A stretch of DNA of 41,889 nucleotides from Roseomonas sp. (GTDB lineage: Bacteria > Pseudomonadota > Alphaproteobacteria > Acetobacterales > Acetobacteraceae). The position numbers and the translations under genes are program-made. The stretch lies in contig JADCES010000066.1 in assembly GCA_020250005.1 (NCBI GenBank), positions 1 through 41,889 on the forward strand, written 5' to 3'. The notes under the pieces were generated by a model that was given only the letters and a program-made list of their open reading frames with translations, was not told the origin of the DNA and searched no databases. Shown one piece after another: positions 12,969-22,476 of this stretch; position 1 is the first letter of the stretch, and every line of letters begins with the position of its first letter.

Positions 12969-13199
12969 ATGGCCAATCCAACCCGCGAAAAATTTGCAAC
13001 CCAGGTGAAGTCCGAAACCCTCGTTGCATTGCGCAACCTCGCCAAAAGCGAGGGACGGCAATTGCAAGCGCTGGTTGATGAGGCGCTTTCCGATCTGATT
13101 GACAAGCGCCAGCGCGCCCGCCCGCGCGCGCATGTCATGGCGGCCTATGAGGCGACCCATGAGAAATATGCCGAGCTTTACGCGAAGCTTGCTGAATGA
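12969..13199 (+). CDS. Ribbon-helix-helix antitoxin paired with a Doc-type toxin
   Basis: A 76-residue protein. The N-terminal half (KFATQVKSETLVALRNLAKSEGRQLQALVDEAL) has the strand-helix-helix pattern of a ribbon-helix-helix DNA-binding domain. The charged C-terminal half (RPRAHVMAAYEATHEKYAEL) is the expected toxin-binding tail. The stop overlaps the start of the Doc gene as ATGA, typical of a toxin-antitoxin pair. It is not the Phd fold of the classical Phd-Doc module. Proposed role: bind the TCATGA boxes upstream and neutralise Doc. Confidence 0.82.
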   Translation: MANPTREKFATQVKSETLVALRNLAKSEGRQLQALVDEALSDLIDKRQRARPRAHVMAAYEATHEKYAELYAKLAE

Positions 13200-13597
13200 C
13201 GGATTACCTGACCATCATTGAGGTCTTGGCTATCCATCACGACCAGATCAAACGCTATGGCGGTGCCGATGGCGTTCGCGATTTTGGGCTGCTTGAGGCC
13301 GCGCTCTATCGCCCGCAGACGGGCTATTATGAGGATGTGATCGAGGAAGCCGCGGCTCTTTGGGAGAGCCTGGCCATGAACCATCCCTTTGTTGACGGGA
13401 ATAAGCGTGTCGCAGCAGCGGCCATGATCACCTTTCTGGCGATCAACGGCTACTCGATCAGGCAAGAAGCCCAGATGCTCTATCGCTTTATCATCGAAAA
13501 CCTGGAAGGCAGGTCATTCCGCCATGACCGCCTTGCAGCATGGTTGCGCGCGAACACGGTGGGCGTGGATCATCAGACAGGAGATAAGGGGCGGTGA
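13196..13597 (+). CDS. Doc-family (Fic-fold) toxin
   Basis: A 133-residue Fic-fold protein of the death-on-curing family. The active-site motif is HPFVDGNKRVAA (His63-Ala74). The NKR ending, in place of the GNGR of AMP-transferring Fic enzymes, is the mark of Doc, which in phage P1 phosphorylates and inactivates elongation factor Tu. The catalytic His63 and Asp67 are present, so the toxin looks functional. Translation is coupled to the upstream antitoxin by a 4-base overlap. It converges on the DUF4406-like gene with only 6 bases between the stops. Confidence 0.88.
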   Translation: MTDYLTIIEVLAIHHDQIKRYGGADGVRDFGLLEAALYRPQTGYYEDVIEEAAALWESLAMNHPFVDGNKRVAAAAMITFLAINGYSIRQEAQMLYRFIIENLEGRSFRHDRLAAWLRANTVGVDHQTGDKGR

Positions 13598-13942: not shown

Positions 13943-14575
13943 TCAGCCGAAGGTGTTCAGCAGGTCATCAACCTGCGCGGGCGTCAGGCTGCGCGCGCCA
14001 GCGCCACGCAGCAGCAGCGCAAGGCGCGCGGCTTCTTCCAATTCCTCTGCCGCATGCACGGCATCTTCCAAGGTACGGCCAGAAACAACGGGGCCGTGAT
14101 TGGCGAGCAGCACGGCCTTCGCGCCCTTTGCCGCTTCGTGGATATCCTTTTCCATCGCGCCATCGCCGGGGCGGTAATAGCGGATCACCGGCAAAAACCG
14201 CCCGACGCGCATGACAAAATAGGGTGTGAGCGGCGGGATGGGCGCGAATTCCCCCGGTTCGGCCAGGCAGGCGATGGCGGTCGCGTGCGTCGAATGCAAA
14301 TGCACCACCGCGCCCGCATCCGGCCGCGCCGTCAGCACCGCGCGATGCATGAAGACTTCCTTGGATGGCTTATCGCCCGAAACATGCGAAAAATCCGGCG
14401 CGAGCTTCGAGATGCGCGCGGGATCAAGCCGGCCAAGGCAGGAATTGGTCGGCGTCATCAGAAACCCATCCGGCAGGCGCACGCTGATATTGCCGGCTGT
14501 CCCCACCGAATAGCCGCGCGCAAAAAGTGAGCCACCAAGCGCGGCAAGTTGCGCGCGTAGCGCAGCCTCATCCAT
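13943..14575 (-). CDS. otnC: Class II aldolase/adducin protein, probable 3-oxo-tetronate 4-phosphate decarboxylase
   Basis: Zinc-dependent class II aldolase-fold enzyme, 210 residues. Metal and catalytic residues are visible: Glu73 in SKEVFMHR, His92 and His94 in VVHLHSTHATA, and His160 in LLANHGPVV. N-terminal GTAGNISVR binds the substrate phosphate. Its ATG lies inside the 3' end of the otnK-like gene (8-base overlap). Class II aldolases paired with a DUF1537 kinase are the known OtnC/OtnK pair of D-erythronate and L-threonate breakdown, where OtnC decarboxylates the 3-oxo-4-phosphate to dihydroxyacetone phosphate. The symbol rests on this pairing and is not proof of substrate. Confidence 0.82.
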   Translation of the reverse strand: MDEAALRAQLAALGGSLFARGYSVGTAGNISVRLPDGFLMTPTNSCLGRLDPARISKLAPDFSHVSGDKPSKEVFMHRAVLTARPDAGAVVHLHSTHATAIACLAEPGEFAPIPPLTPYFVMRVGRFLPVIRYYRPGDGAMEKDIHEAAKGAKAVLLANHGPVVSGRTLEDAVHAAEELEEAARLALLLRGAGARSLTPAQVDDLLNTFG

Positions 14576-15827
14576 GGTCGAAAGCCTTCAGGAAGAAATC
14601 GCGCGCGCCAAAATTGCCGGACTTCAACGCCAGATGCAGCCCGCGCGGTTCGGCAAAAGTCCATGGCACGCCTGGATCAATCTCTGGCCCGATGCGAAGC
14701 GTCGTGACACCCAGGCGCTGCACCACCGCGCCGGAAGTCTCGCCACCCGCCACGACCAAGCGCCCCACACCGCGCGCGACAAGCCCTTCCGCGATGGCGG
14801 CCATGGCGGCTTCAATCAAGGCGCCGGCGGCATCACGCCCAAGCTTCGCTTGCAATGCGGCAACCTTTTCAGGCGGCGCGCTGGCGGCAATCACCACCGG
14901 GCGATCGGCGGCCAATTTCCCGTCCACCCATTCCAGTGCCTGCGCCGTAAGTGCCGCCGCATCGGGCGTTGCGAGCGCATCCAATTCCAGCACCGGCACG
15001 TGATCGCGCGCGAGGCCGATTTGCCCGAGTGTCGCCCGCGAACAGGAACCCGCCACCACCGCCGTCATGCCCTGCATGGGCGGCAGGCTTGCGGCATCGC
15101 CGCGCGCGGGCAGCAAGCCAGCGCGACGGAAATTCTCGGGCAGGCCCATCGCCACACCGGAACCGCCGGTGATCAGCGCGTGTTGCGCTGCCGCTTCACC
15201 AATCGCGAGCAAATGCTGATCCGTCACCGCGTCAACAATCGCATAGCGCCGGCCTTGTTCAGCAAGGCGCATCATGGCTTGCCGCGTGGCGGCGGCACCT
15301 TGTTCTACGCTGGTGAAGGGCACCAGCCCGACCGCGCCATCGGTCTGCCGGCCAAGCACGCGCACCAGATTCGCATCCGTCATCGGCGTCAGCGGATGGT
15401 TTTCCATGCCGCTTTCATTGAGCAGTGCATTGCCCACGAAAAGATGTCCAAGATAAATCGTCCGCCCATTGGTCGGAAAGGCCGGGCAGGCCAGCGCAAA
15501 GCCCGATCCCAGGCGCTTGAGCAGCGCATCCGCGACCGGGCCAATATTGCCCTGATCCGTGCTGTCAAAGGTCGAGCAATATTTCCAGAAAATCTGTTTG
15601 GCACCTGCGGCCAGCAGTGCATCACAAGCGGCCAGGGATTGCGCCACTGCTTCGCCGACCGGCGCGGTGCGCGATTTCAGCGCAATGATCACGGCATCGG
15701 CTTCCGGCAAGGGACCGGTCGGCACGCCAATCACCTGCACGGCAGTCATGCCGCCTTTGACCAGCGTATTCGCGAGGTCCGTCGCCCCCGTGAAATCATC
15801 CGCGATGCAGCCAAGCAAAAGAGGCAT
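14568..15827 (-). CDS. otnK: Four-carbon acid sugar kinase (3-oxo-tetronate kinase)
   Basis: DUF1537-family kinase of 419 residues that phosphorylates 3-oxo-tetronate. The N-terminal substrate domain shows CIADDFTGATDLANTL (7-22) and FWKYCSTFDSTDQGNIG; the C-terminal nucleotide domain shows GSCSRATLGQI and VAGGETSGAVVQRLGV. All domains are complete. It overlaps the downstream aldolase by 8 bases and begins 6 bases after the methyltransferase stop. The usual dehydrogenase (ltnD/denD) and isomerase (otnI) are absent nearby, so they must lie elsewhere or the pathway is shortened. Confidence 0.9.
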   Translation of the reverse strand: MPLLLGCIADDFTGATDLANTLVKGGMTAVQVIGVPTGPLPEADAVIIALKSRTAPVGEAVAQSLAACDALLAAGAKQIFWKYCSTFDSTDQGNIGPVADALLKRLGSGFALACPAFPTNGRTIYLGHLFVGNALLNESGMENHPLTPMTDANLVRVLGRQTDGAVGLVPFTSVEQGAAATRQAMMRLAEQGRRYAIVDAVTDQHLLAIGEAAAQHALITGGSGVAMGLPENFRRAGLLPARGDAASLPPMQGMTAVVAGSCSRATLGQIGLARDHVPVLELDALATPDAAALTAQALEWVDGKLAADRPVVIAASAPPEKVAALQAKLGRDAAGALIEAAMAAIAEGLVARGVGRLVVAGGETSGAVVQRLGVTTLRIGPEIDPGVPWTFAEPRGLHLALKSGNFGARDFFLKAFDHG

Positions 15828-15833
15828 GTGAAA

Positions 15834-16709
15834 CTACCTTGCAGGAGGAAGTGCCAGGAAATCCTGATGACCGATGCGCACGGCAAGCTGCCCGGCATCG
15901 GCTTGATCACGCCGCGTTTCAAGCCAATCCAGAATGGCTTCCGCACCGCGCCTTTCCCAGCCGATCGCGGCCATGCCATGGCCATCGGCAATAGCGCGGG
16001 TGAAGGCGCGGGCGCGGCGATCTACCACCCAATCACTCGGTGCGCGATGAATGGTATAGCCATGCGCGGCAAAGACTTCGGCCATCACGGCCGGTGCTTG
16101 CGGCCCAAGGGATGCGCCACCAAAGCCCTTGTCGCGCGCCTGATCACGGCGAAAGCCGCGCGCGACCAGCGCATCGGCGGAATGGGGCGGGGTGAAGCGT
16201 TCGCGCCCTGTCACATTCAGCGCGGCATAGAAAGGCAGGCGCCGTGCGGCGCAGGCGGCGGCCATGGTTTCCACCCAACCGCGCGAAACCAGATCGCAAA
16301 GCGCGGTACTCACCACCGCATCCACGCGTTCCAAGGGCAGATTGGCAGGCGCTGCGGCAAGATCAGCCAGAATCGCTTCAATACGCCATGCGCCATGCGG
16401 CGCATGCACCAAAAGCGCACTCCGCCCTGGTTGCGTCACGGGCCAATCCACCGCCTCAGCCCGTTCTGAGATGGTATCAAAAGCGCGGGAGATCAATTCC
16501 GCGTCGCTATCCACCAAGGTCCAGCTTTGCGCGCGGCCAATGAAATGGCCAAGCCAGCGGAGCAAGCTGCCGGTGCCCGCGCCAAGATCAAGCAGGCGCG
16601 GCCGCGCGGGCAGAGATGCAGCGAGCATCGCGGCCAATTCAGCATTGCGCGCGGCGGCGTCATAAGGCTCCCGCAGATCGAGCCAATCACCATCAAAGCT
16701 TTCAGCCAT
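15834..16709 (-). CDS. Class I SAM-dependent methyltransferase
   Basis: A 291-residue protein with the SAM-binding motif LLDLGAGTGSLLRW (39-52), followed by an acidic strand end TLVDSDAE that would hold the ribose. The remaining ~200 residues include VDAVVSTALCDLVSRGWVETMAAA and a tail without a motif I recognise. The start is the ATG at 16709, 8 bases inside the GT4 gene's 3' end (ATGGCTGA); a TTG at 16715 is less likely. Overlap with the glycosyltransferase implies linked production, so it may methylate the same product or an intermediate. The substrate is unknown. Confidence 0.86.
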   Translation of the reverse strand: MAESFDGDWLDLREPYDAAARNAELAAMLAASLPARPRLLDLGAGTGSLLRWLGHFIGRAQSWTLVDSDAELISRAFDTISERAEAVDWPVTQPGRSALLVHAPHGAWRIEAILADLAAAPANLPLERVDAVVSTALCDLVSRGWVETMAAACAARRLPFYAALNVTGRERFTPPHSADALVARGFRRDQARDKGFGGASLGPQAPAVMAEVFAAHGYTIHRAPSDWVVDRRARAFTRAIADGHGMAAIGWERRGAEAILDWLETRRDQADAGQLAVRIGHQDFLALPPAR

Positions 16710-17748
16710 GATCAAGAGCTTTCAGGAAAGCGGCGGCGCGGTCCGGCCAGCGCGGTAGGCCCTGGCCCGCGCGCCAGGAAGCTTCGGCCATCGCCGCGCG
16801 CAAGCCTGTGTCGAAAATCGGCCGGCGCATGGCGCGCGATAGCGCGTTGTGGTCATCCACCGCCGCAACCACGGCGGCATCTTCCGGCACAATTTCGGCA
16901 ATCGCGCCGCCGGCAGTGATCGCCATCGGCAGGCCGCGCGCCATCGCCTCTGCCGCCGCCATGCCATAGCCTTCATAACGCGTGGCGAGTGCAAAAAGAT
17001 CAGCGCGCGTATATTCCGCTTCCAAGGCGGCATCGGGCAGCGCCCCCAAGAAGCGCACGCGTTGCGCAATGCCAAGCTCGGCGGCCAGCGCGCGCAGCCC
17101 ATCGGCATGCACAGGATCACGCGTGGCATCGCCGGCGATGGCGAGCGACCATTCAAGATCCGTGAGCCGCGCGAGTGCGCGCAGCAGCACATCATGCCCC
17201 TTGCGTGGCACGAGCATGCCGACACTCAGAATGGCGCAGCCGGGGCCGGCGGAACCCACCGCGCGCGGCGCGGCATCAGTGCCTGGTTCAATTACGCTGA
17301 TGCGCGCGGGGTCCACACCAAATCCTTCCGGCAAATCCCGCGCGGTGAGGGTGGAGGTGGTGATGAGGCGCGCGCAGGCGCTGAACAAGATGCGTTCGGC
17401 GGCCTTCAAGGCTTCGCGCTGACCTTCCGGGGCGCCGGGTTCAAGCGCGGTTGGGTGATGGATCAGCGCCATTGCGCCGCGGCGGGTCAATTCATCGGCG
17501 AAGGGGAAAAAGGCGGGCAGACCCAGCCCATCAATCACAATCCGCGCGCCGGCGGGAATGGCGGCGAGTGCGGCGCGCGCCGCTTCTGTGGCGCCATCAT
17601 CGGGAAAGGGATGGCGCCCGGCCAATTCCACCACGCGCACATCCTGCCCGAGCGCGCGCAGCCCTTCGACCATGCGGCGATCATAGATATAGCCGCCGGA
17701 AATCGCGCTGAAGGGCGCGGGGACAATAAGGTGGATGCCGACGGTCAT
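16702..17748 (-). CDS. GT4-family glycosyltransferase
   Basis: A 348-residue GT-B fold enzyme. The N-terminal acceptor domain opens with IHLIVPAPFSAISGGYIYDRRMVEGL. The C-terminal donor domain has SVGMLVPRKGHDVLLRAL and the E-x7-E motif in ATRYEGYGMAAAEAMARGLPM, marking a retaining GT4 transferase that uses an NDP-sugar. No transmembrane segment is evident, so the acceptor may be soluble or the enzyme peripheral. The ATG at 17748 overlaps the FitB toxin stop as ATGA, so its translation may be coupled to that of the toxin. It overlaps the methyltransferase by 8 bases. Confidence 0.88.
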   Translation of the reverse strand: MTVGIHLIVPAPFSAISGGYIYDRRMVEGLRALGQDVRVVELAGRHPFPDDGATEAARAALAAIPAGARIVIDGLGLPAFFPFADELTRRGAMALIHHPTALEPGAPEGQREALKAAERILFSACARLITTSTLTARDLPEGFGVDPARISVIEPGTDAAPRAVGSAGPGCAILSVGMLVPRKGHDVLLRALARLTDLEWSLAIAGDATRDPVHADGLRALAAELGIAQRVRFLGALPDAALEAEYTRADLFALATRYEGYGMAAAEAMARGLPMAITAGGAIAEIVPEDAAVVAAVDDHNALSRAMRRPIFDTGLRAAMAEASWRAGQGLPRWPDRAAAFLKALDHG

Positions 17749-18188
17749 GGGGAGCTTTGGGTACCTTGCTGATGCGCCCATGGGTCTATCACCGCTATGC
17801 CGCAACCGGCAAAATCGACGGTATTGCGTGTCGCGATGGCGGCACCTTGGGCGCGGGCGGTGGCGGCGATCTGGCCATGGGCGAAGCTGATCGGGCGGCC
17901 CGCGGCGCGGCGTTCCAGAAACACCAGCACAAAGGCTTGGGCGGCGGCGCTATCAAAAGGCAGGATGCGGCCCGCGAAATCCTCAGTGATCATGGCATCT
18001 ATCGCGGCCATCAATTGGGCACGCCGCTTGCCGGCGGGAAGCATGGCGGCACTACGGCGCAATTCCGCCTCCCCAATCGCGCTCAAGTACAAATCTGCGG
18101 CGTCCTGCGCGGCGAACCAAGCCAGCACGGCTTCGGATGGTGCGGGGCGCATGAGTTCGGAAACCACATTCGTATCCAGCAGGATCAT
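17745..18188 (-). CDS. FitB/VapC-type PIN-domain toxin with a substituted active-site residue
   Basis: PIN-domain ribonuclease of the FitB subgroup, 147 residues. MILLDTNVVSELMRP opens the fold with the metal ligand Asp5; Glu42 and the Asp125 of TRNTVDF are also present. The third acidic position, Asp104 in FitB (usually ADAQIAA), reads FAHGQIAA here, so it is His104 (codon CAT at 17879-17877). This may weaken or abolish catalysis. I chose the ATG at 18188, 7 bases after the antitoxin stop; upstream frame to 18260 would overlap the antitoxin. The stop overlaps the start of the GT4 gene. Confidence 0.88.
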   Translation of the reverse strand: MILLDTNVVSELMRPAPSEAVLAWFAAQDAADLYLSAIGEAELRRSAAMLPAGKRRAQLMAAIDAMITEDFAGRILPFDSAAAQAFVLVFLERRAAGRPISFAHGQIAATARAQGAAIATRNTVDFAGCGIAVIDPWAHQQGTQSSP

Positions 18189-18195
18189 GCCCGCT

Positions 18196-18438
18196 TCAAT
18201 CGAGGCGCGGCGGTGCCGGCATTGCCTCACGCGTCGGCAGGTCCAGTTCAACGCCGCCAAGTGCGGCGAAGCGGCGATGGATCGCCTCGCCCAGGTTCGG
18301 TGCGGGGGCAGGGCGGCTCATGGCCTGGCGGAGGATATCGCGCGCCTCCTCTTCCATGGACCGGCCATGTTCGGCGGCGCGGATGCGCAGGCTCCGCTTC
18401 AGCGCCTCATCAAGATTTCGGATGGTGATGCTGGCCAT
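18196..18438 (-). CDS. FitA-type ribbon-helix-helix antitoxin
   Basis: An 80-residue antitoxin. MASITIRNLDEALKRSLRIRAAEHGRSMEEEARDIL is the classic FitA ribbon-helix-helix start, and the C-terminal tail (GEAIHRRFAALGGVELDLP) would wrap the PIN toxin. The AAGG ribosome site lies about 9 bases upstream of the ATG. It sits 7 bases before the toxin. A perfect inverted repeat overlapping a good promoter lies directly upstream (18456-18491), the expected site for FitA-FitB autorepression. Confidence 0.9.
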   Translation of the reverse strand: MASITIRNLDEALKRSLRIRAAEHGRSMEEEARDILRQAMSRPAPAPNLGEAIHRRFAALGGVELDLPTREAMPAPPRLD

Positions 18439-18455
18439 GGTGGCGCCCTTTCTTG

Positions 18456-18491
18456 TGCAATCATTGTAATCATTGATTGCACTGCAAGCAA
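18456..18491 (-). promoter_or_regulatory. Promoter and operator of the fitAB-like pair
   Basis: On the minus strand TTGCTT (18491-18486) and TACAAT (18468-18463) are separated by 17 bases, a good sigma-70-type promoter. A perfect inverted repeat, TGCAATCA (18456-18463) and TGATTGCA (18474-18481) around 10 bases, overlaps the -10 box and the spacer. AATCATTG is also repeated directly at 18459 and 18468. The ATG of the antitoxin is 18 bases below the repeat. Binding by a ribbon-helix-helix dimer here would shut the promoter. Confidence 0.68.
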
Positions 18492-18510
18492 GACTCAGGC
18501 GGCGATCAAC

Positions 18511-18927
18511 TCAGGCCGGCGGCGCCTCACCCGGTGCGGCCTCATAGGCGGCCCAGGCGATATGGCTTTCGCGCAGCAGCACCTTAAGGCCCGTCACGGC
18601 CTTGCCGCCCGCTCCAAGCTTGCCCTCAGCCAGCGCGGCCGAGAGGCAGCGATGGATATGCAGGCAGAGATATTCGGTCGTGGTGTTCTGCCCGGCAAAG
18701 ACCGGTTCCGCATCCAGATTGCGATAATCAAACCCATCCAGGATATGGCGCAGTTCCACCTTGGCCGCCGCGATATCCACCAGCAGATTGAGCGGATCGA
18801 GCTTCGGCGCGCGGAACTCGGCCTCCACAATGAAAGTCGCGCCATGCAGGCGCTGCGCGGGGCCGAATTCCGCGCCGCGGAAGGAATGGGCGATCATGAC
18901 GTGATCAACAACGGTCAGGCTGAACAT
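18511..18927 (-). CDS. 6-pyruvoyl-tetrahydropterin synthase/QueD-fold protein with altered active site
   Basis: A 138-residue T-fold protein similar to PTPS and QueD by pattern: MIAHSFRG (H14), RLHGATFIVEAEF, LLVDIAAAKVELRHIL, NTTTEYLC and KVLLRESHIAWAAY. Compared with E. coli QueD, several essential positions differ: the catalytic Cys is Ala24 (GPAQRLHGA), the second His of the HGH zinc motif is Ala30, and the His of the Asp-His pair is Tyr68 (FDYRNLD). It probably does not perform the standard PTPS or QueD reaction. I take the ATG at 18927 with AGGA upstream; an in-frame ATG at 18960 overlaps the MDR stop (ATGA) and is an alternative. It belongs to the reductase-MDR operon. Confidence 0.82.
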   Translation of the reverse strand: MFSLTVVDHVMIAHSFRGAEFGPAQRLHGATFIVEAEFRAPKLDPLNLLVDIAAAKVELRHILDGFDYRNLDAEPVFAGQNTTTEYLCLHIHRCLSAALAEGKLGAGGKAVTGLKVLLRESHIAWAAYEAAPGEAPPA

Positions 18928-18956
18928 GGCGGGTTTATCCTGTGCGGTTCGGCGCT

Positions 18957-19940
18957 TCATGCACCATAGGTCACCAACGGGCAAAGCGGCGCGGGTGTGC
19001 CGGGGGCGGGGTTGAGCAAGCCGGGCAGGGCTTGGGGCAAATCATCGAAGGAAGTGGCAGAGCCGATCAGCGCTTCCAGGGCAGGGTCCGCCAGCAGGCC
19101 AAGCGCCTGGGCCATGCGCTGCCCAAAACTGCGGCGCCCGCGCATGGCGGGGGCGACGGCGCCAACCTGGCTTGAGATCAGGCGTAGGCGGCGGGAATGG
19201 AATGCCTCGCCCAAAGGCAGCGCCACTTCCGTGGCGCCGAACCATGATGCTTCGATGATCCGCGCCTCAAACGCCGCGCATTGCAAGGCCTGGCGCAGCC
19301 CGGCGGGGTTGGCGCTGGCATGGATGATCAGTTCTTGCTCCGCCGGTGCGGCTTCCGGGGCGGCGAAAGCGACGCCGAATTGTTCCGCAATGGCGCGGCG
19401 TGATGCATCGGGGTCAACGATGGTCACCGCCATGGCCGGGATACGCGCGAGCAGATAAGCCACCAGCAGCCCAACCACGCCAGCGCCGATGACCAGCGCG
19501 CGCTCTCCGGCCAGGGGTTGCGCATCCCACAGGATATTCAGCGCGGTTTCCACATTGGCGCCGAGCACGGCGCGGGTATCGGGCACCGCATCCGGGATGG
19601 GGATGCACATGGCAGCAGGGGCGATGAAGACATCCTGATGCGGGTGCAGGCAAAATATGCGCCGGCCTTGCAGATCGGCGGGGCCTTCAATCACACGGGC
19701 CACGCCGCTGTAGCCATACTTCACCGGGAAGGGGAAATCGCCTGCCTGCAAGGGGCAGCGCATCGCGCCCCATTGGTTCTCCGGCACCTTGCCTGCCAGC
19801 ACCAGCCGTTCCGTACCGCGCGAAATGCCCGACGCCAGCATACGCGCCAGCACCTGATCCGGCGCGCGGGCGGGCAGGGTCTCGGAGCGCAGTTCCGCTT
19901 GGCCAGGGGCGATCGTCCATAAGGCGCGCGCTTTGGTCAT
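18957..19940 (-). CDS. MDR-family dehydrogenase lacking the catalytic zinc cysteine
   Basis: Medium-chain dehydrogenase/reductase, 327 residues. The N-terminal GroES-like domain has LASGISRGTERLVLAG (36-50), where zinc alcohol dehydrogenases carry a Cys in GxCGxD. The Rossmann domain starts at ERALVIGAGVVGLLVAYLLA, with VDPDASR as the expected NAD(P)-ribose region. Without the zinc ligand it more likely acts as a reductase on an activated C=O or C=C bond than as a classical alcohol dehydrogenase. It overlaps the upstream RibD-like gene by 4 bases, and its stop overlaps a possible start of the PTPS-like gene. Confidence 0.86.
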   Translation of the reverse strand: MTKARALWTIAPGQAELRSETLPARAPDQVLARMLASGISRGTERLVLAGKVPENQWGAMRCPLQAGDFPFPVKYGYSGVARVIEGPADLQGRRIFCLHPHQDVFIAPAAMCIPIPDAVPDTRAVLGANVETALNILWDAQPLAGERALVIGAGVVGLLVAYLLARIPAMAVTIVDPDASRRAIAEQFGVAFAAPEAAPAEQELIIHASANPAGLRQALQCAAFEARIIEASWFGATEVALPLGEAFHSRRLRLISSQVGAVAPAMRGRRSFGQRMAQALGLLADPALEALIGSATSFDDLPQALPGLLNPAPGTPAPLCPLVTYGA

Positions 19941-20722
19941 GCTTGCCCCCCGGGCTTGGCGCGATCCAGCGCGGCATCAATCAGGATATCGGGCGCGATA
20001 TCATGCACGCGCCAGGCAAAGCGCAGCCCATCGGCGATGCGCGCCACTTCCGGCAAGGTAAAGGCGGGGATGCCGGAACCGAGCAGCACGGGCGCCACCG
20101 TGACATGCAGCCGATCAAGACACCCAGCCGCCAGAAAGCGCGAGACGGTGAGCCCACCGCCTTCAACAAAAATCCGGCTGGCCCCGCGTGCCTTGAGTGC
20201 GGCGAGCAAGGGTGGGATGGCGAGACCTCCGCCAGCAACGCGCGGCAGGCGCAGCACTTTGGCTTGGCCGTGCTGCTCAGGCCCGTCAGCATCGGCGGCG
20301 CAGACCAGCAAGGTTGGCGGCCCGCCTTGGAAAATGCCGTAATCGGCCGAGAGTTTGCGATCCGTATCCAGCACCACGCGCAAGGGATCCGGCCCCGGCA
20401 CTTCGCGGGTGGTGAGGCGCGGATTGTCATGGCGCACCGTACCAGCGCCCACCACCACGGCATGGCAAAGGGCGCGCAGCCGATGCGTATGCAGGATATC
20501 GCCCGGCCCGCCGATCCATTGGCTTGACCCGGCGGCAGTGGCGATACGGCCATCCAGGGTTTGCGCCAGACGCCCGATCACCCGGCAGCCATCAGGTGCC
20601 GCGGGCGGCGCCAGCACCGGGCCGAACAGCGCAGCAAGCGGGCCATCCGGCAAGGCCGCGCCTGAGCCATCGCGGAGCGCGAGCAGGGCTGACCAATCGG
20701 CGGCGGGGGCGGCGGGTTCCAT
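19937..20722 (-). CDS. RibD C-terminal-domain reductase (pyrimidine/pterin reductase family)
   Basis: A 261-residue protein with the dihydrofolate-reductase-like fold of the RibD reductase domain: RVIGRLAQTLDGRIATAAGS (47-66), SQWIGGPGD, AVVVGAGTVRHDNPRLTTR, DPLRVVLDT and FVEGGGLTVSRFLAAGCLDRL. It lacks the RibD deaminase domain and has a distinct ~45-residue N-terminus. Relatives reduce the ribosyl group of the riboflavin intermediate or dihydropterins with NADPH. Because a PTPS-like gene follows, a role in a GTP-derived compound is likely, but the substrate is unknown. It is the first gene of the run; its stop overlaps the MDR start by 4 bases. Confidence 0.86.
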   Translation of the reverse strand: MEPAAPAADWSALLALRDGSGAALPDGPLAALFGPVLAPPAAPDGCRVIGRLAQTLDGRIATAAGSSQWIGGPGDILHTHRLRALCHAVVVGAGTVRHDNPRLTTREVPGPDPLRVVLDTDRKLSADYGIFQGGPPTLLVCAADADGPEQHGQAKVLRLPRVAGGGLAIPPLLAALKARGASRIFVEGGGLTVSRFLAAGCLDRLHVTVAPVLLGSGIPAFTLPEVARIADGLRFAWRVHDIAPDILIDAALDRAKPGGQA

Positions 20723-21236: not shown

Positions 21237-21752
21237 TCAAGGCGCCGCGAGATTGATCGCGAAAAACGGCAGCAGCGCCTGCATGATCAGCCCCGCCAGC
21301 ACCGGCAGGAAAAAGGACGATGCGAGGCGCAGCGCCACAAAGCGCCAGCCCAGCACCGGGTATTCCCAAGTCAAAATCCGGTGCATCGCATAGACCGACC
21401 AGGCCGTGAGCAGCGCGGTCATTTGCGCCACCCCAGCGCCGGCCTTGCTGAAGGTGATCACCAGCGGAAAGGTCACGAAAGGCCCGCCCGGCATGATGCC
21501 GCCGGCCAAGGCCGCAATCATGATGCCATTCAGCCCGGAATCATCGCCAAGCCAGGCGGTGGCGATATCGGCCGGCACAAGCTCCGACAAGAAAGCTGCC
21601 ATGGGCAGCGCCACGCAGAACATGGGCAGGATGCGCCAAAAGCCGCGATTGGTCTCGGCCACCGCACGCCGCGCCTGGGGCATGCCGCGGCGCATGCAAA
21701 GCGCCAGCACCGCCAGCGCAATGACCCAAAGGATGATTTGCGGCCCGCTCAT
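21237..21752 (-). CDS. Half-size predicted permease, second of a pair
   Basis: A 171-residue protein with about five membrane segments. The central motif IMPGGPFVTFPLVITF matches the LSPGGPMAAFPLV of its upstream neighbour; this PGGP motif and the hydrophobic pattern suggest half of a DUF318/ArsP-like permease (PF03773), normally one ~300-residue protein. The ATG at 21752 overlaps the partner's stop (ATGA), so the two are translated together and likely form a heterodimer. The substrate is unknown, and no metal-binding cysteines like those of arsenic exporters are seen. Confidence 0.72.
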   Translation of the reverse strand: MSGPQIILWVIALAVLALCMRRGMPQARRAVAETNRGFWRILPMFCVALPMAAFLSELVPADIATAWLGDDSGLNGIMIAALAGGIMPGGPFVTFPLVITFSKAGAGVAQMTALLTAWSVYAMHRILTWEYPVLGWRFVALRLASSFFLPVLAGLIMQALLPFFAINLAAP

Positions 21753-22276
21753 TTCGGCGGCTCCCACGCAATCGGCACGCGCCGCGCAATCCAGCCCGCG
21801 ATCATCGGCATGGGGAAGGTGATCAGCGTGCGCAGCAGCGCGAAATCAAGGCCAAGCAGCGGCGCTTCATAGACCAGCAGTTTTTGGAAGCCAGTCAGCG
21901 ACCAGGCGAGGATGAAGGCGACCAGCGCGCCCCGATCCGCCCCGGCACCCGCCAGCACCAGTACCAGCGGAAAGGCCGCCATGGGGCCTCCGGGCGACAG
22001 AGTGCCGACCAACGTTGCGATGAACAGGCCAAAAATCCCGCTTTCCGCCCCCATCCAGCGCGCCAGCGCATCCGGGGAGAGCAATTGCCGAAGCGCGGAC
22101 GCCAGGAGCAAGCCCGCCACCAAAGACGGCACAATGAACAGGAACAAGTCCCAGGCATGCCAAAGCGCCGTCATGAAGGAAGCGGCGCCCTTTAGCTGCA
22201 AGGTCGCAAATCCGGCGGTCACTGCAATCAGGGAAATGACCACGAGCGAGGCGTGGCGGCGGAGCGCATTCAACAC
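21749..22276 (-). CDS. Half-size predicted permease, first of a pair
   Basis: A 175-residue membrane protein when started at the GTG at 22276, which has an AGG ribosome site 7 bases upstream. The open frame reaches 22432, but that extension would translate a perfect hairpin (22320-22342) and is poorly protein-like, so I prefer the later start. Membrane segments include LVVISLIAVTAGFATLQ, LFLFIVPSLVAGLLLASAL, the SPGGPMAAFPLVLVLAG motif region and ALLRTLITFPMPMIAGWI. It pairs with the following half-permease. The start codon is the uncertain part. Confidence 0.68.
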   Translation of the reverse strand: MLNALRRHASLVVISLIAVTAGFATLQLKGAASFMTALWHAWDLFLFIVPSLVAGLLLASALRQLLSPDALARWMGAESGIFGLFIATLVGTLSPGGPMAAFPLVLVLAGAGADRGALVAFILAWSLTGFQKLLVYEAPLLGLDFALLRTLITFPMPMIAGWIARRVPIAWEPPK

Positions 22277-22319
22277 GCGGGCAACCTGCAAGACAGGAGC
22301 AAGGCGCGCAAGAGAGGGC

Positions 22320-22342
22320 GGGGGAAGGGCAGCCCTTCCCCC
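22320..22342. repeat. Perfect 10-bp hairpin in the permease leader
   Basis: GGGGGAAGGG (22320-22329), a 3-base loop and CCCTTCCCCC (22333-22342). It lies between the divergent ABC exporter and permease genes. Its style (GC-rich arms, 3-base loop) resembles the inverted repeats between ruvA and ruvB. Confidence 0.6.
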
Positions 22343-22476
22343 GAACTCACCGGGCTGGCGCGGCAAAATGGGGATCCGGTCGCGCCAAAAAGGAACATAA
22401 CAAGAACTATCACTGGGCACGTCCTTTTGCAAGCCCTTATCGCCATCGGCCCATCCGGCGCTATAAGCGGCGCAAC

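Follow-up and report, generated by a model that had tools for sequence, protein, structure and literature searches.

Five enzyme genes lie together in contig JADCES010000066.1 of Roseomonas sp. (assembly GCA_020250005.1, a genome of 4.03 Mb in 325 contigs), of which positions 1-41,889, the whole stretch analysed, are called the window here. The question that they raise is whether a RibD-type reductase, a medium-chain dehydrogenase/reductase (MDR), a protein with the fold of 6-pyruvoyl-tetrahydropterin synthase (PTPS), a GT4 glycosyltransferase and a class I S-adenosylmethionine (SAM)-dependent methyltransferase (MT) serve one pathway, and what that pathway would make. An earlier note on this DNA had placed the five genes in one direction at 15834..20722 and proposed an undescribed, probably GTP-derived pathway with glycosyl and methyl decoration. 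All five genes were found, on the minus strand and with those outer coordinates, and the proposal of one such pathway is supported by what follows. We regard the window operon as the form taken in Acetobacteraceae by a biosynthetic gene cluster of wide distribution, which we name the SCO6650-type cluster. Our best reading, held with moderate confidence, is that the cluster makes a GTP-derived, pyrimidine- or pterin-like small molecule that is glycosylated and methylated. This reading is preferred because of the co-occurrence of the genes, the linked pattern of GTP cyclohydrolase II (GCH II) and creatininase-family genes, the kinship of the RibD-type protein with reductases of 2,5-diamino-6-ribosylamino-4(3H)-pyrimidinone 5'-phosphate (DARPP), and an anchor Glu that is kept in the PTPS-like protein. 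What was observed directly is which genes are present and co-occur, which residues are lost, how GCH II and creatininase go together, and to which families the proteins belong.

Conservation was followed in 150 genomes of the window's own family and in 398 genomes of its phylum, a sample that is poor in own-family genomes, where exceptions such as G099 (locus L037) occur. A PTPS-like relative is encoded by 67 of the 150 own-family genomes. The note had singled out the PTPS-like form with the motif GPAQRLHGAT as the one whose company should be inspected; in slices of the best 30 of these 67 genomes, the window among them, the PTPS-like gene occurs with the RibD, MDR and GT4 genes, in the same order, in 30 of 30 cases, and 25 of the 29 non-window slices also show the MT at the slice edge. 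In L025, L026 and L029 GT4 is followed directly by the kinase gene OtnK, and in the distant own-family members L032-L034 RibD faces the other genes and the MT was not found. An alignment of the PTPS-like family matched 49 of the 398 phylum genomes, 27 of them at E<1e-50 and the other 22 at 9e-15 or weaker. The MDR, queried separately, returned the same 27 genomes, with a weak second MDR in G413, and the MT alignment matched 26 genomes, 25 of which are among the 27. Loss of the gene set in relatives, or each gene standing mainly in unrelated surroundings, had been named beforehand as the result that would refute the proposal; instead, conservation held for PTPS, MDR and MT, each queried on its own (25 of the 26 MT genomes lie within the 27 shared by PTPS and MDR).

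For a wider view, open reading frames (ORFs) were called in 104 relative loci and clustered, and profiles were built from the clusters; the calls came from our own ORF script and include some wrongly chosen frames, as at the GT4 of L039, which is present. Counts refer to full-flank loci, those with more than 5 kb on both sides of PTPS. These comprise 79 of 99 loci, 39 Acetobacteraceae-like and 40 others, a division made from record titles and similarity, with no tree; loci were counted without species de-duplication, and some genomes are represented by both a named and an unnamed locus. The 20 loci that fall outside these counts include L093, L095 and L100, which have real gene losses. Across all 79 full-flank loci MDR is present in 77, GT4 in 77 and MT in 67. 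The Acetobacteraceae-like loci contribute MDR 37, GT4 39, MT 32 and RibD 37, and the 40 other loci MDR 40, GT4 38, MT 35 and RibD 27, where three of the five MT misses are GT4-MT fusions. In total at least 583 relatives were confirmed. With its gene order nearly unchanged, the cluster is spread over Acetobacteraceae, other alphaproteobacteria, other Proteobacteria, many Actinobacteria and metagenome-assembled genomes (MAGs) labelled Gemmatimonadales and Acidobacteria, with named relatives in Roseomonas-type genera, Tistlia, Caenispirillum, Streptomyces, Amycolatopsis, Micromonospora, Actinomadura and Pseudonocardia. The five genes form a genuine, strongly linked set in which a few true substitutions and losses occur. 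Its MDR-PTPS-GT4-MT part is also found in streptomycetes, at loci L116, L125 and L129.

The PTPS-like protein is the sole PF01242 match in the window genome. Its family profile matched PDB entry 3d7j, 'Uncharacterized protein SCO6650' of Streptomyces coelicolor, at 193 bits, against no more than 35 bits for chains of true PTPS and QueD; the window protein and SCO6650 belong to the same family and the GPAQRLHGAT motif is identical in both. The likeness to PTPS and QueD lies in the fold family, two zinc His residues and the pterin anchor Glu, whereas the difference lies in the active site. With residue numbers and roles that we take to be those of rat PTPS, alignment of the window protein to PTPS chain 1b66 shows the catalytic Cys replaced by Ala, the second His of HGH (the third zinc ligand) by Ala and His89 by Tyr. 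Among 103 loci the Cys42 position holds Ala in 102 and Ser in one, the third zinc His position Ala in 102 and Cys in one, and the His89 position Tyr in 96, while the two other zinc His residues and the anchor Glu are kept in 103 of 103; Asp occupies the Asp88 position in only 60. Neither the His-His-His zinc site nor the Cys/Asp/His triad of PTPS is intact. SCO6650 itself is said, in a structure paper by Spoonamore and Bandarian, to lack zinc and PTPS activity and to keep a pterin-like pocket, and reportedly does not turn over dihydroneopterin triphosphate.

These residue losses bear on two alternative functions. A queuosine-type role, with the PTPS-like protein as the genome's QueD, would fit its standing as the only PF01242 protein there and its match to TIGR03367; however, that match scores 36.9 bits, below the cut-off of 89.25, and the zinc site is broken. 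QueD and true PTPS function were both rejected on the score and the lost residues, and the chance of a queuosine-type function appears negligible. The earlier note had also likened the locus to the tetrahydrobiopterin glucosides of cyanobacteria, a route in which GTP cyclohydrolase I (GCH I) takes the first step and a zinc-binding PTPS must be catalytically active. A tetrahydrobiopterin-glycoside pathway of the kind found in cyanobacteria and Chlorobium would explain why a PTPS fold stands beside a GT4-type glycosyltransferase, but the PTPS-like protein is without the catalytic Cys, the third zinc His and mostly His89, and the linked cyclohydrolase is GCH II. Moreover, no short-chain dehydrogenase/reductase (SDR) of the sepiapterin-reductase type was recognised among the neighbour-cluster representatives read, in work that included no search aimed at SDR or GCH I. 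The likeness was given up on the grounds of the lost catalytic and zinc residues and of the linked GCH II, and a pathway of this type seems highly improbable.

Since the window holds no cyclohydrolase gene, the note had expected the first step to come from elsewhere, which agrees with the relatives and with the window genome. GCH II is linked to the cluster in 25 of the 40 full-flank loci outside Acetobacteraceae, and a creatininase-family gene, a candidate formamidase, in 18 (representatives of the families counted were confirmed by Pfam). The window, in which the MDR, PTPS-like, GT4 and MT genes are present, has no linked GCH II; its genome has two GCH II matches, none at the cluster, and the copy on contig C12 (read in L188) is of the Tyr type. 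This type refers to a switch residue that was read by eye from sequence context, its position being checked on an alignment to 2bz0 in which a Met of the GCH II from Streptomyces locus L116 stands opposite E. coli Tyr105. The same position (Met120 in the GCH II SCO6655, studied by Spoonamore and Bandarian) reportedly switches the product to the formylated form, FAPy (a formylaminopyrimidine). The 26 cluster-linked GCH II enzymes read have Met (6), His (4), Gln (1) or Tyr (15) there. A linked creatininase-family gene accompanies 11 of the 11 non-Tyr enzymes and four of the 15 Tyr enzymes (Fisher p = 2e-4, not corrected for kinship); the switch-residue pattern refers to loci L108-L131 and L215-L224. 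Seventeen cluster-bearing genomes contain 41 GCH II matches; all 18 unlinked copies read are of the Tyr type, ten further unlinked copies being unread. Creatininase-family formamidase activity on AFRPP (2-amino-5-formylamino-6-ribosylaminopyrimidinone 5'-phosphate) is described for S. meliloti and B. abortus BrbF (PMC9478397).

The RibD-type protein consists of a RibD_C domain with no deaminase domain. Its family profile placed two DARPP reductases, 6p8c with 170 bits and 2azn with 148, ahead of bifunctional RibD; the window protein itself scores 95.1 bits against the archaeal equivalog TIGR01508, under the cut-off of 186.45. With its deaminase-less architecture and DARPP reductases as its nearest solved relatives, the protein is predicted to be a DARPP reductase-like enzyme that reduces the GCH II product. 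The window genome's other RibD_C match is a 378-residue frame on contig C138.

Taken together, the start of the cluster resembles the archaeal-type early riboflavin steps (FAPy hydrolase and DARPP reductase) and the bacterial BrbF system in its GCH II or FAPy-forming start, its creatininase-family formamidase and its deaminase-less reductase; it differs in being linked to PTPS-like, MDR, GT4 and MT genes and not to lumazine or riboflavin synthase. A second riboflavin route, or a route to a flavin analogue, could draw on exactly these genes, as GCH II, formamidase-like and DARPP reductase-like proteins are early riboflavin enzymes. However, neither a lumazine or riboflavin synthase nor a deaminase domain was seen among the ten window proteins scanned (the relatives were not searched by family), the genome has its separate 378-residue RibD frame, and the PTPS-like, GT4 and MT proteins have, from general knowledge, no place in riboflavin synthesis. 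A riboflavin duplicate was rejected, and a flavin-directed route is judged very unlikely.

The MDR is matched best among NCBIfam models by that of BchC, the bacteriochlorophyll 3-hydroxyethyl dehydrogenase, but with a score far below the model's cut-off (Table 1), and its gene is tied to the PTPS-like gene. At what we take to be the zinc-ligand stretches it reads S-x-[VIL]-S and Y-G-Y, compared with Cys and G-H-E in zinc-dependent MDRs, and it is therefore probably zinc-independent. Its AlphaFold model (predicted local distance difference test score, pLDDT, 91.7) has an ordinary MDR fold with template-modelling (TM) scores of at most 0.79 to solved MDRs, and the fold search returned generic MDRs only. 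The nearest solved relatives of the GT4 are Tll1590 (6kih) and D-inositol 3-phosphate glycosyltransferase-like chains (3c4q and 7qsg). GT4 and MT are fused in one frame in three loci (L169:8897-10831, L175:8724-10661 and L171:7026-8993), which suggests that the two enzymes act one after the other. The MT model (pLDDT 95.8) shows a class I methyltransferase fold whose best TM score is about 0.57 of the query, and the fold search gave no close or informative relative. The family is almost confined to the cluster, cluster-bearing genomes making up 25 of the 26 with a match among the 398. The sole match outside that set, at G514:C2:66675-67448, has an E-value of 7e-34.

From these assignments we infer the reactions, their order and the product. 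GCH II would open GTP to give DARPP; where it has Met, His or Gln at the switch position, as in many actinobacterial clusters, its product would still be formylated, and deformylation would be the task of the cluster's creatininase-family enzyme. The RibD_C-only protein would then reduce the ribosyl group to ribityl, leaving the ring undeaminated. The PTPS-fold protein, its zinc site lost and the Glu that grips the 2-amino-4-oxo-pyrimidine edge kept, may act on the reduced product or on a ring-closed, pterin-like form, together with a partner dehydrogenase that is usually the BchC-like MDR. GT4 and MT would come last, a sugar being added and then methylated. For the window genome, the unlinked Tyr-type GCH II on contig C12 would provide the cyclohydrolase step, with no need of a formamidase.

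Several observations weigh against this reading. GCH II and creatininase are absent from all 39 full-flank Acetobacteraceae-like loci, and linked GCH II, not being universal, is therefore treated as an optional part of the cluster. Four Tyr-type clusters carry creatininase as well, and the window genome's best creatininase homologue is weakly associated with the cluster in its own family (16 of 67 cluster-bearing genomes, compared with 9 of 83 others). RibD is missing from 13 of the 40 full-flank loci outside Acetobacteraceae; the 11 of these 13 genomes that were searched have 2 to 31 RibD_C matches each, paralogues too many to read, and the reductase can therefore not be called obligatory. 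PTPS and MDR are present without an MT match in G348 and G365, L093 and L095 keep RibD, MDR and PTPS with GT4 and MT absent from the 8 kb downstream of PTPS, and in L114 and L177 PTPS is followed directly by MT without GT4. In the MAG loci L100, L103 and L106 a D-2-hydroxyacid dehydrogenase upstream of PTPS replaces RibD and MDR, GT4 and OtnK still following PTPS, and an alpha/beta hydrolase stands additionally beside the dehydrogenase in L103 and L106. A 2-hydroxyacid dehydrogenase likewise precedes PTPS in L037, from the window's own family, where RibD, MDR, GT4 and MT were not found in 17 kb. The MDR/PTPS pairing is thus near-constant and not absolute. Since a dehydrogenase replaces the MDR in these four Acetobacteraceae-like loci, the PTPS-like protein can work with another NAD-type dehydrogenase, and this exchange of partners hints at a hydroxy/oxo conversion.

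Envelope genes near the cluster raise a different possibility, namely that the product is a cell-envelope component or modifier, a GTP-derived glycoside attached to lipid or glucan for export. Among the 40 full-flank loci outside Acetobacteraceae LPG_synthase_TM occurs in 27 and a CDP-alcohol phosphotransferase in 26, and the glucan glucosyltransferase MdoH was found in 12 of the 104 loci, from several different families, in nine of which it is a divergently oriented neighbour of the MDR gene. This linkage of the cluster to the three envelope-type genes is a new observation. Any MdoH match is found in 110 of the 150 own-family genomes, and the 59 matches of at least 481 bits fall in 58 of the 67 cluster-bearing genomes and in one other, G074. 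The 481-bit line is, however, our own and post hoc, no own-family match reaches the model cut-off of 884, and weaker MdoH genes are widespread (a match of any strength occurs in 62 of 67 cluster-bearing genomes and 48 of 83 others). Moreover, kinship may lie behind the count at 481 bits, the cluster-bearing genomes being perhaps largely one clade. Unlinked MdoH genes lack conserved pathway neighbours, no pathway neighbour being shared among the 16 MdoH regions examined (one, L235, with the cluster nearby), and the actinobacterial loci yielded no MdoH. Neither LPG_synthase_TM nor the CDP-alcohol phosphotransferase occurs in any of the 39 full-flank Acetobacteraceae-like loci. An envelope product of this kind thus seems unlikely, and a lipid- or glucan-linked envelope molecule of a previously unknown kind, with a glycosylated and methylated 2-amino-4-oxo-pyrimidine or pterin head derived from GTP, a shade less likely still; nevertheless, MdoH, LPG_synthase_TM and the CDP-alcohol phosphotransferase together make an envelope role worth testing. 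Separately, an FkbM-type methyltransferase (m11) recurs in two of the 16 MdoH regions.

Returning to the GTP-derived, glycosylated and methylated small molecule, a description of such a pathway was not found by text searches of the literature, from whose coverage subscription papers mostly fell out. The wide retention of the gene set makes a useful product likely, perhaps a cofactor, a signal or an envelope molecule. Through the near-constant pairing of MDR and PTPS, the GCH II linked to them and the creatininase pattern, the orphan structure SCO6650 gains a pathway whose first half can be tested, with streptomycetes as tractable hosts.

Table 1. Features of the window locus, given in order of transcription, and stretches of relatives discussed in the text.
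Feature	Position	Strand	Evidence
RibD_C-only reductase, no deaminase domain	19937..20722	-	PF01872 140 bits, sole Pfam domain
MDR oxidoreductase, BchC-like, probably zinc-less	18957..19940	-	TIGR01202 bchC 53.5 bits, cut-off 291.25
PTPS-fold protein, SCO6650 family	18511..18927	-	PF01242 68.3 bits, cut-off 22.4
FitA/VapB-like antitoxin	18196..18438	-	PF22513 73.8 bits
PIN-domain VapC/FitB-like toxin	17745..18188	-	PF01850 37 bits
GT4 glycosyltransferase	16702..17748	-	PF00534 98.7 bits
Class I SAM methyltransferase (MT)	15834..16709	-	Pfam scores just below cut-off: 24.8, 25.4 vs 27
3-oxo-tetronate kinase OtnK	14568..15827	-	NF043035 608 bits, cut-off 350
3-oxo-tetronate 4-phosphate decarboxylase OtnC	13943..14575	-	NF043034 282 bits, cut-off 250
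Dehydrogenase-variant stretches	L037:6967-8013, L100:2518-4509, L103:5307-7958, L106:5176-7975		
MdoH divergent from MDR	L032, L033, L034, L164, L166, L173, L174, L176, L178		
MdoH-type glucosyltransferase	G000:C28:44653-46383 (in L228)		

The order of transcription in the window is RibD_C reductase, MDR, PTPS-like protein, a toxin-antitoxin pair, GT4, MT, OtnK and OtnC. Thus the five-gene run of the earlier note contains its five genes, but the toxin-antitoxin pair between PTPS and GT4 had been missed and the run goes on to OtnK and OtnC. Likewise, its statement that most junctions overlap by 4-8 bases is right for two of the four, RibD/MDR (4 bases) and GT4/MT (8 bases), while MDR and PTPS are separated by 29 bases and PTPS and GT4 by 762. 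The latter spacing holds the FitA-like antitoxin and the VapC toxin, whose gene overlaps GT4 by 4 bases. Among the loci compared, the one other place with the pair is L052, from a closely related Roseomonas MAG (antitoxin 89% and toxin 90% identical), and the pair is therefore probably a recent insert; besides the window copies and L052, the antitoxin gave one 39-residue match in L124. The pair (VapBC/FitAB) was accordingly rejected as a pathway member, as a lineage-specific insert.

OtnK begins 6 bases past MT, and the same-strand run continues through OtnK and OtnC. The OtnK cluster is present in 45 of the 104 loci, every one of them Acetobacteraceae-like, and the Acetobacteraceae clusters as a group differ from the streptomycete type in often standing beside OtnK/OtnC and in being without linked GCH II, creatininase, LPG_synthase_TM and CDP-alcohol phosphotransferase. 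In Acetobacteraceae OtnK is probably a mere conserved flank, and OtnK/OtnC were rejected as pathway members on the same footing as the flagellar genes that often flank the cluster at its other end. A promoter and terminator scan of the locus gave no more than was found in shuffled sequence. Beyond the run, a Fic/DOC-family protein is encoded on the plus strand at 13196-13597 (PF02661, 59.8 bits) and may belong to another toxin-antitoxin locus. On the other side of the operon, at 21237-22432, two overlapping half-length ORFs of the ArsP_1 permease type lie in different frames, where the close relative L043 has one matching frame of 362 residues.

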